64,000 nucleotides of DNA, from contig NZ_JACXZA010000001.1 in assembly GCF_014779765.1 (NCBI RefSeq), positions 372,001 to 436,000 of the forward strand, in the 5' to 3' direction. This DNA is from Paenibacillus terricola. Its GTDB lineage: Bacteria > Bacillota > Bacilli > Paenibacillales > Paenibacillaceae. The notes under the pieces are model-generated. The model was not told the DNA's origin. It saw only the letters and a program-made list of their open reading frames with translations, and made no database searches. The position numbers and the translations under genes are program-made. Positions 24,801-51,121 of this stretch are shown here, piece after piece (position 1 is the stretch's first letter; every line of letters begins with the position of its first letter).

Positions 24801-24832
24801 GTTAAAAGGAAGCCCTTTTTACAGGCTTCCTT
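24801..24832 (-). terminator. Intrinsic terminator of structured RNA unit A (minus strand)
   Basis: Read on the minus strand, AAGGAAGCC and GGCTTCCTT form a nine-bp stem followed by TTAACG, directly after the conserved RNA unit. Its stem sequence differs entirely from that of unit B while the position is the same. Confidence 0.65.
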
Positions 24833-25048
24833 CCGACGGTGGTTAGAAATTGAGTTCATTCTCATCAACACTTTGCGTTGTTACTCGGGTAACGCTTGTT
24901 AAAGCGTGTGTGAAATCAGAGAAACTCTGCGACACAACCCCTCGCTTCCTAGGCTTCGTGATCAACTAAATGTCTCCTGCAGTCCTTGTACCATTAATGG
25001 GTCCAATGGAGCCACACCTCTCATTCGCACCGTCGTTTAGTATTATGG
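24833..25048 (-). ncRNA. Candidate structured RNA, unit A
   Basis: A 214-nt unit almost identical to unit B (25183-25395). Read on the minus strand it begins at CCATAATACTAAACGACGG, where CATAAT can be a -10 element. The whole is closed by GACGGTG (25028-25034) pairing with CACCGTC (24835-24841). Inside are ACGCTT-TAAC-AAGCGT, GTTAC-CCGA-GTAAC, AACGC-AAA-GTGTT, CCATT-n9-AATGG, and GTGT-CAGAG-TTT-CTCTG-ACAC hairpins. ACTAAA near the 5' end can also pair with TTTAGT at 24965-24970, which would make a pseudoknot with the closing stem. A terminator hairpin follows. There is no ribosome site or conserved open frame. I cannot name the Rfam class from memory. Confidence 0.6.
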
Positions 25049-25155
25049 ACTGAAGGCGATTGATCTATTCATCATTTCTTAACATCGTTGCGAGAAATTC
25101 GCGGTGATCGCTTATATATTGTTGCGAGTTCGTAAATTGGCAAGTTATATCGAAT

Positions 25156-25180
25156 AGAAAAGAGGCCCTCTCGGGCCTCT
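25156..25180 (-). terminator. Intrinsic terminator of structured RNA unit B (minus strand)
   Basis: On the minus strand, AGAGGCCC-GAGA-GGGCCTCT is a perfect eight-bp stem with a tetraloop, followed by TTTCTATT. It directly follows the 3' end of unit B. Confidence 0.7.
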
Positions 25181-25182
25181 CT

Positions 25183-25395
25183 GACGGTGGTTAGAAATTG
25201 AGTTCATTCTCATCAACACTTTGCGTTGTTACTCGGGTAACGCTTGTTAAAGCGTGTGTGAATCAGAGATACTCTGCGACACAACCCCTCGCTTCCTAGG
25301 CTTCGTGATCAACTAAATGTCTCCTGCAGTCCTTGTACCATTAATGGGTCCAATGGAGCCACACCTCTCATTCGCACCGTCGTTTAGTATTATGG
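25183..25395 (-). ncRNA. Candidate structured RNA, unit B
   Basis: A 213-nt second copy, 348 bp from unit A. It differs from A at only a few positions: a loop base in the CAGAG-TTT/TAT-CTCTG hairpin and one base lost in the neighbouring internal loop. Both changes leave the stems intact. The sequences flanking the two units are unrelated, so conservation stops at the unit edges. It has its own terminator (25156-25180). A -35 element is not clear; TTGACG occurs upstream but at a poor distance. Confidence 0.6.
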
Positions 25396-25586
25396 TTCGC
25401 AGGGACGTCAATTATTCATGGTCAATCCATAAAAATATTGAAGTGCTATTACCCAATCAGCATCCATCAGATGATCCGATTATTCCCGCTAAATAGCAAT
25501 CCGAGGGGGATTGGCGAATTGAAGGAAGCATCCAGGCTTATTTTACGTTATAATAGACGTTTGTAAGGAAAGAAGTTAGGAGTGAA

Positions 25587-28884: not shown

Positions 28885-28978
28885 AAGGGTACCCTCCTTG
28901 AGTACTTACACCCGTCTGGCGTGCAAGGTTCATTTTCAAGGTAGGATACCCTATTTTCTTACATACGATTAGAATAAC

Positions 28979-29372
28979 GTTCCCGCAGGGAACCATCGTC
29001 TCTTCGCCAGTCATCGCTCTCACGCTTTTCGACGATGGCCGTTCCCACAGGGAACCATCGTCCACTTCGTCAGCGCTACTCTCACGCTCTTCGACGATGG
29101 CTGTTCCAGCAGGGAACCATCGTCGACTTCGTCAGCGCTACTCTCACGCTCTTCGACGATGGCCGTTCCCGTAGGGAACCATCGTCGACTTCGTCAGCGC
29201 TACTCTCACGCTCTTCGACGATGGCTGTTCCCGCAGGGAACCATCGTCCACTTCGTCAGCGCTACTCTCACGCTCTTCGACGATGGCCGTTCCCGCAGGG
29301 AACCATCGTCCACTTCGTCAGCGCTACTCTCACGCTCTTCGACGATGGCCGTTCCCGCAGGGAACCATCGTC
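28979..29372. repeat. 62-bp tandem repeat with palindromic cores, about 6.4 units
   Basis: Units start at 28979, 29041, 29103, 29165, 29227, 29289 and 29351, with exact 62-bp spacing. Each full unit has a 32-nt palindrome (for example 29031-29062: GACGATG, GTTCCC, ACA, GGGAAC, CATCGTC) followed by a nearly identical 30-nt linker with CTTCGTCAGCGCTACTCTCA. Variation falls mainly in the three-base loop (ACA, GCA, GTA) and the GCC/GCT bulge. Because 62 is not a multiple of three, it does not code for a repeat protein. The linkers are all alike, so it is not CRISPR. Confidence 0.9.
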
Positions 29373-29520
29373 GACTACGGAGCATACACTCCAAATCCTA
29401 AATTGCACGTGCCTTGCGAGTGCCCAATCCCAATCTTGCGCAAACACGTCAGCACGCACCGACGCCATACGTTCGAACTCGCCCAATATTAACGGCACTC
29501 ACATCCGCCAACGTAGAGCG

Positions 29521-50890: not shown

Positions 50891-50924
50891 TTGATGAGTT
50901 GCTGGACAATAACCGAATATTCAA

Positions 50925-51102
50925 CAGCCGAATTTCCGAAGGAAAACGGGGGAACCATATTGTTGCCGTCTATGCAGACGCTGCCGATCGCATCGGCCGT
51001 ACGCGGCAACTTGGGGTGAATTCAGCAAGATGGGGGATGCCTCCCCTGCGCTGATAGGGCGATCTATCCGGGCCCGAATCCGACAGCTAACCTCGTAGGC
51101 TG
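50925..51102 (+). promoter_or_regulatory. c-di-AMP riboswitch (ydaO/yuaA leader)
   Basis: The aptamer is closed by CAGCC (50925-50929) and GGCTG (51098-51102). Conserved elements are in the right order: CCGAAGGAAAACGGGGGAAC, then GGGGTGAATTC near 51010, and CCGAATCCGACAGCTAACCT with CGTAGGC near the 3' end. An intrinsic terminator follows, so high c-di-AMP should stop transcription of the potassium-uptake genes, as known for ktrAB in Bacillus. Confidence 0.93.
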
Positions 51103-51121
51103 CATGGACAGAACTCATCGC

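Follow-up and report, generated by a model that had tools for sequence, protein, structure and literature searches.

The window, a 64,000-nucleotide stretch of the Paenibacillus terricola genome (6.78 Mb), carries two tandem units on the minus strand. Their bodies, measured from P1 to P1 and refined by a covariance model, span 25183-25381 (unit 1, 199 nt) and 24835-25034 (unit 2, 200 nt), with 347 nt from start to start. The bodies are identical at 198 of 200 positions; the flanks are dissimilar, with 38/63 matches in the upstream 60 nt and 25/45 in the downstream 40 nt. Both units are closed by GACGGTG/CACCGTC, and a terminator with a different stem stands directly 3' of each. A description made earlier from the letters alone (the earlier note) is confirmed as to the near-identical units, the unrelated flanks, the closing stem and the differing terminators. 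A third, diverged copy is found on contig 12 (12:27823-28069). Unit 1 together with its terminator folds with a z-score of -2.78, and equally good folding was obtained in 1 of 200 shuffles. The features of the two units are as follows.

25413-25418, minus strand: unit 1, predicted -35 element TGAATA, with an 18-nt spacer to the -10 element (sequence; pattern in 200 of 222 distinct units)
25388-25394, minus strand: unit 1, predicted -10 element CATAATA of the forespore sigma type (sequence pattern)
25183-25381, minus strand: unit 1, RNA body, P1 to P1, 199 nt (model R1 198.9 bits, E 2e-60, in the R1 seed; model R2 98.9 bits, outside the R2 seed)
25375-25381, minus strand: unit 1, P1 5' arm GACGGTG (P1 covariation, 38 double-changed cells against 5.7 shuffled)
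25362-25367, minus strand: unit 1, Shine-Dalgarno-like GAGGTG (present in 111 of 115 distinct A3 units)
25309-25353, minus strand: unit 1, short open reading frame (ORF) with TTG start, 14 codons and TGA, MDPLMVQGLQETFS (ORF analysis)
25183-25189, minus strand: unit 1, P1 3' arm CACCGTC (P1 covariation)
25155-25182, minus strand: unit 1, intrinsic terminator AGAGAGGCCC/GGGCCTCTTTT, a 10-bp stem directly after P1
25066-25071, minus strand: unit 2, predicted -35 element TGAATA (sequence pattern)
25041-25047, minus strand: unit 2, predicted -10 element CATAATA (sequence pattern)
24835-25034, minus strand: unit 2, RNA body, P1 to P1, 200 nt (R1 192.5 bits, in the R1 seed; R2 97.4 bits, outside the R2 seed)
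25028-25034 and 24835-24841, minus strand: unit 2, P1 arms (closing helix)
25015-25020, minus strand: unit 2, Shine-Dalgarno-like GAGGTG (sequence)
24962-25006, minus strand: unit 2, short ORF with TTG start, its 14-codon peptide identical to that of unit 1 (ORF analysis)
24804-24834, minus strand: unit 2, intrinsic terminator GGAAGGAAGCCT/GGGCTTCCTTTT, a 12-position stem directly after P1

Repeats of other kinds also occur in the window. A 62-bp unit with the self-complementary core CGTTCCCGCAGGGAACC forms a tandem array at 28978-29376 (6.4 copies, 93% matches). A similar short intergenic repeat is present at two places in the genome, 20954-21181 of the window and L097:8758-9271, with parallel spurious ORF translations around PKPSLQGRAP.

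The units are members of an uncatalogued family of structured small RNAs, without a match in Rfam 15, that is present in most sampled genomes of the order. A blastn search with unit 1 found matches in 6 of 6 genomes of the genus (its own included) and in 108 of 394 genomes of the family. Model R1, built from 31 sequences, detected the RNA in 253 of 344 genomes of the order, and model R2, built from 60 diverse sequences with P1 as its sole structure, in 313 of 344, with one to five matches per positive genome. Thus, the covariance-model search that the earlier note had proposed shows that the RNA is not confined to its own genome. In a class sample 25 of 348 genomes gave matches, all in the host's family and none elsewhere at E 0.001. 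In a phylum sample the six of 398 genomes with matches at E <=0.001 all fell in that family, and five others at E 0.03-0.09 were regarded as chance; both samples were scored with stricter filters, so that weak homologues could be missed. In a named collection, a signature pattern occurred in at least 120 stretches, and the 80 listed belong to Paenibacillus or Cohnella with the exception of one 'Bacillus sp. FJAT-28004'.

The earlier note could assign no known class and thought the RNA possibly undescribed. The Rfam 15 scan that it suggested bears this out, as the units had no match at the gathering cut-off, and a scan at E up to 10 gave three chance matches to eukaryotic snoRNAs or microRNAs (best E 0.22), far under the cut-offs. 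The window's sole Rfam match at gathering is a c-di-AMP riboswitch (RF00379, 88.9 bits) on the plus strand at 50916-51116. Among the papers listed in searches on Paenibacillus small RNAs, sporulation, structured RNAs and RNA-seq, no title or opening of an abstract describes the RNA, and full-text searches did not return its signature sequence. An RNA-seq study of P. riograndensis reports 27 intergenic small RNAs, three with Rfam annotation (PMC5670726), and one of the 27 may be the RNA described here.

The closing helix P1 covaries strongly. Over 60 diverse units it pairs in 99.8% of cells, six of its seven pairs are changed on both sides, and the 38 double-changed cells compare with 5.7 (sd 2.0) in shuffles. 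When the partner is slid by -3 to +2 positions, pairing falls to 21-58%; a +3 slide, with four countable pairs, still pairs in 95.4% of cells because the arm is partly self-similar, but it yields 3 double-changed cells. Against a tree-based null (60 simulated alignments, 115 units), two P1 pairs were unequalled and one P2 pair reached E 0.017, whereas P4, P5 and an extra P1 pair remained at E 0.2-0.4 and some high scores in the P4 region came from neighbouring, non-pairing columns. RNAalifold on the A2 alignment gave 20 pairs, three of them double-changed. The 38-pair structure of R1 contains 5 double-changed pairs, equalled or bettered in 58 of 500 shuffles, and 12 double-changed cells, equalled in 0 of 500. 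The covariation analysis, also proposed earlier, is therefore positive for P1 and for the one P2 pair. Of the at least five hairpins that had been described, these have support at E <0.05, and P4, P5 and the rest are unproven. The suggested pseudoknot between ACTAAA and TTTAGT is not supported: of 115 distinct units 11 contain TTTAGT, both motifs occur together only in the two units of the window, and ACTAAA overlaps or follows the -10 box and so lies mostly upstream of the expected transcript start.

The search models themselves include P1 and the core letters, which biases the pairing and start-codon counts. A held-out set was drawn from outside both models: of 44 matches in 40 genomes where R1 had given either no match or a marginal one, 30 loci were used, and all 30 pair at least six of the seven P1 positions. 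The promoter and the terminator lie outside the models and constitute independent support. Directly behind P1, a strict terminator is present in 107 of 115 units as compared with 42 of 2300 shuffles; a looser test was undiscriminating (113 of 115 units, 388 of 575 shuffles).

The promoter pattern, G[ACT]AT[AG]-N17/18-CANNHTA, is absent from both R1 and R2 and lies at a fixed distance upstream of the start codon in the 200 matching units of the 222. By comparison, 8 of 4440 shuffled sequences carry the pattern, as do 15 of 4440 windows placed at random in these loci. It is also present in 107 of the 115 model-found units and, in its strict form, in 18 of the 30 held-out loci, the other 12 missing it. 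Among the first 25 rows examined, 23 have T/C-G-N-A-T-A followed after 17 or 18 nt by CATAATA, or a sequence close to it, which ends 5-6 nt upstream of P1; the true upstream sequences of the remaining two (L012 and L013), read by eye, contain TGCATA and CATCATA. Upstream regions of small acid-soluble spore protein (SASP) genes in the same genome (5 of 7 matches) included two with the strict pattern, one GCATA-N18-CATAATA and one weak with a poor -10, and three with none. According to one report, a G upstream of the -10 element marks sigma-F promoters in B. subtilis, and an A downstream of it marks those of sigma-G (PMC3789822). The units had previously been taken to start at CATAAT. The motif is indeed shared, and the start is misplaced, as CATAAT is the predicted -10 element upstream of P1 and transcription would be expected to begin at about GACGGTG. 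The forespore-type promoter was overlooked in the earlier note. Judged by its promoter, the RNA is suggested to be made inside the developing spore, and each unit is very probably a forespore RNA gene. Promoter, structure and distribution, as predicted from sequence, are well supported.

Genes for sigma-G were sought with TIGR02850 at a cut-off of 457 bits in 55 genomes of the order, 35 taken from the 313 with the RNA and 20 from the 31 in which it was not detected. All 35 scanned RNA-positive genomes have sigG above the cut-off. Besides the promoter type and its distance, the absence of the RNA together with sigG fits membership of the sigma-G regulon in 16 of 16 scanned genomes, all of a single genus (g17), with a best TIGR02850 score of <=138 bits; these absences perhaps reflect one ancestral loss, and would then count as one event and not sixteen. 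Second-best matches in other genomes score 280-300 bits and are taken to be sigma-F; g17 has nothing near these scores. Four RNA-negative genomes (G394, G395, G397 and G398) carry sigG and have no detectable RNA. As a separate observation, the 16 g17 genomes (G375-G390) are all without sigG or anything sigma-F-like, an apparent loss of sporulation in this genus, and one of them, G381, has no match to RF00516 (CsfG).

Among 279 locus matches, a redundant set in which many have a flank of 1.5 kb only, 131 adjoin yjzC, 38 lie near a HesB or SEC-C gene (one of these also adjoining yjzC), and 106 have none of 15 reference proteins nearby. A typical yjzC locus has rpsF-ssb on one strand, yjzC and the RNA on the other, and then DUF951 or mscS, and the yjzC site probably represents the ancestral location of the RNA. 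The window units occupy a second site, between a gene for a SEC-C protein and an ORF of 151 amino acids (orf151), near HesB and MqnC. Both the SEC-C gene and orf151 are on the plus strand, so the window RNAs are not leaders of a gene; a cis-acting leader or riboswitch was ruled out by the units' own terminators and the opposite strand of the flanking genes. The earlier suggestion of duplicated stand-alone structured RNA genes is thus upheld by the terminators and by the homologues in other genomes. Nothing was seen that speaks for the catalytic-like RNAs also considered there.

Another genome of the genus, G001, carries the same tandem pair, with bodies identical at 173 of 200 positions as compared with 198 of 200 in the window genome (G000). 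Unit 2 of G000 matches unit 1 of G001 at 193 of 200 positions and its own G001 orthologue at 173 of 201. Its flanks show the reverse, with 48/60 upstream and 36/41 downstream matches to the orthologue as against 38/63 and 25/45 to unit 1. Because the body of unit 2 resembles unit 1 and its flanks resemble the orthologue, the duplication appears to predate the split of G000 and G001, the transcribed body of unit 2 presumably having been converted by unit 1. The homogenised stretch coincides with the RNA and ends at P1. As an observation on 24835-25381, gene conversion is apparently limited to the transcribed RNA body of the tandem copies when the same-genus genome is compared.

Near-identical tandem copies and one to five matches per positive genome could also be expected of a mobile or repetitive element. 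This is most improbable, since 131 of the 279 redundant locus matches adjoin yjzC, homogenisation stops at P1, and the flanks are nearer to their orthologues. A phage collection contained no match to the units, and the sole match in a plasmid collection was a single Paenibacillus cellulosilyticus megaplasmid record (99% of the query, 90.6% identity), which also argue against mobility. Viral contigs had no exact match to a 21-base pattern, a weak test as the pattern lies outside the most conserved element.

Near the 5' end of the RNA, the near-invariant element GAGAGGTGTGGTTCCRTTG can be read as GAGGTG, 8 nt and TTG. GAGGTG is complementary to CACCTC of the 16S rRNA tail, and in two SASP genes of the same genome the ATG is preceded by AAGGAGGTG and GAGGAGGTG. 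The start codon was sought solely 13-15 nt after GAGG, where it is found in all 115 distinct A3 units (113 TTG, one ATG and one GTG). These 115 units do not include any from a TTG-containing pattern search, unlike the sets of 222 and 59 units used below. Behind NTG no A3 unit has a stop within 8 codons, as compared with 81 and 17 in the +1 and +2 frames. In the 33 units whose sequences after the start are less than 55% alike, the corresponding counts are 0 as compared with 26 and 10 for the two alternative frames, and 31 of the 33 stop after 8-23 codons. A wider set of 59 dissimilar units gave 0, 42 and 18 (shuffle log10 P -11.1), with 56 of 59 stopping after 8-23 codons as against 40% expected. 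Across 222 distinct units the ORF has 9-22 codons in 209 and more than 23 in 11. Of the 30 held-out loci, 23 keep GAGG and NTG, and in 22 of the 23 the ORF runs for 8-23 codons. Of the seven that remain, six combine an AAGG-type site with TTG and have ORFs 14-19 codons long, and L300 lacks a start codon where one would be expected. These results contradict the statements of the earlier note that the RNA has no ribosome site and no conserved frame: GAGGTG and an NTG start are near-invariant in the A3 units, and the frame, mostly short, is free of stops over at least 8 codons in each of the 115. The short ORF is probably initiated by ribosomes, to judge from these signals.

The ORF start and its short length are kept across units, and the peptide is not. 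In 65 disjoint pairs the synonymous fraction was 0.253 as compared with 0.223 for random placement (95% range 0.179-0.267), and changes at codon positions 1, 2 and 3 numbered 83, 95 and 109; a conserved peptide is not supported by this test. The lack of a significant synonymous excess weighs against the RNA being a small mRNA for fast-evolving forespore micropeptides of about 9-22 residues, with a structure that merely protects the message. Such an mRNA would account for the start signals and the short open frame, and peptide groups are recognisable within clades, for example MDNEADHSLLEIHHVI, or MNSLVQQPQEEQIHSA and its likes. However, peptides of different clades look unrelated, and compensating indels within the genus alter the peptide and not its length (MDPIMVQGLQEEIR as compared with MDLITGTRTAGGIN), so that this alternative is considered improbable.

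The spacer UGUGGUUCC is conserved far beyond the needs of a Shine-Dalgarno spacer, and the element may therefore serve something other than the start of translation. A forespore trans-acting small RNA could pair with target mRNAs through the conserved GAGAGGUGUGGUUCC, the likeness to a Shine-Dalgarno sequence and UUG being incidental. The near-invariance of the linear sequence in 60 diverse units would fit such a role, as would a P2 helix that, by eye, is variable on its 3' side and invariant on its 5' side, and forespore small RNAs (CsfG and Bvs196) are already known. Pairing with targets leaves unexplained, however, why the frame behind NTG, unlike the other frames, is open in every dissimilar unit and why UUG is exchanged for AUG or GUG; nor was there excess complementarity to the CsfG region of the same genome. 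This alternative is rather unlikely. Pairing through the invariant element is a serious rival to a role in translation, with which it could coexist. CsfG itself is not supported as a pairing partner in the one genome analysed, where the duplex had -74.1 kcal/mol and shuffles averaged -78.2 (sd 6.5); on the other strand the values were -79.1 and -77.5. Separately, the CsfG region (G000:C1:1251750-1251844, L294) is CU-rich over CTCCTCTCCC, a segment able in principle to bind ribosome sites of the GAGAGG type; a duplex test on the whole sequences gave a negative result.

Taken together, the best explanation is, with fair likelihood, a gene for a forespore small RNA, which would engage ribosomes on a short ORF with an unconserved product. 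Each unit would be a gene in its own right, encoding a small structured RNA some 200-250 nt long that occurs in the host's order (Paenibacillus, Cohnella and their kin). RNA polymerase with a forespore sigma factor, sigma-G and perhaps also sigma-F, would transcribe it in the developing spore, from about GACGGTG to the terminator directly after P1, as the sequence suggests. The 5' element would act as a ribosome-binding site (GAGGUG, 8-nt spacer, UUG) opening an ORF of usually 9-22 codons, which is presumably translated. Selection acts on start and length but not on the residues encoded, so that the step most likely to be functional is translation, or the binding of ribosomes as such. A function exerted by translating the ORF, and not by the peptide made, is quite possible, if somewhat short of an even chance. 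This step may capture ribosomes, or it may refold the P2 structure in which the start codon is held; the body closed by P1 might provide stability and a platform for partners, which is speculative. In the most specific form of this mechanism, the RNA would function by being initiated on, capturing ribosomes of the maturing forespore on a short ORF whose start and stop, unlike its product, are under selection, and so parking or gating translation before dormancy, a proposal that is tentative and itself unlikely. The two window copies would have lasted as a tandem pair whose transcribed bodies gene conversion keeps alike.

To the few known forespore small RNAs this RNA adds a highly conserved family that is missing from Rfam 15 and extends over most of the host's order. 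The predictions are dependence on sigma-G, the transcript ends given above and a ribosome footprint on an ORF with a seemingly unimportant product, and translational control in the developing spore would become directly testable in Paenibacillus.

Among known systems, SR1 is described as a small RNA with a short ORF and a link to sporulation (PMC8501984), both of which the new RNA shares as a candidate dual-function RNA. The SR1 product, SR1P, is a defined functional protein, whereas the peptide of the new RNA is not conserved, having no significant synonymous excess. Bvs196/S547 is described as a structured forespore small RNA of 294 nt, mainly controlled by sigma-G, located between hinT and ecsA and reported from 253 Bacillus genomes (PMC9147052). 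By that description it is set apart from the window units, which do not share its location; the hinT-ecsA context was also not seen among the nameable contexts of the family. CsfG (ylbG-ylbH, Rfam RF00516 ylbH) is described as forespore-restricted, controlled by sigma-F and sigma-G, and conserved in endospore formers (PMC3574147, PMC9147052), and the promoter sequence of the new units would fit such control. The new RNA might be an RNA already catalogued or described, in diverged form, with CsfG and Bvs196/S547 as the foremost candidates; the predicted forespore sigma type and the similar length class would agree with this. It is very unlikely, as the Rfam scans came nowhere near a cut-off and no genome outside the family matched at E 0.001 in the class and phylum samples with their stricter filters. 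Identity with CsfG was rejected, since the units have no RF00516 match and RF00516 has a locus of its own in 20 of 21 relatives (18 above the cut-off), including the window genome, where it matches at C1:1251750-1251844. CsfG is located between ylbG and ylbH; the new RNA lies beside SEC-C, orf151, HesB and MqnC or beside YjzC-RpsF.
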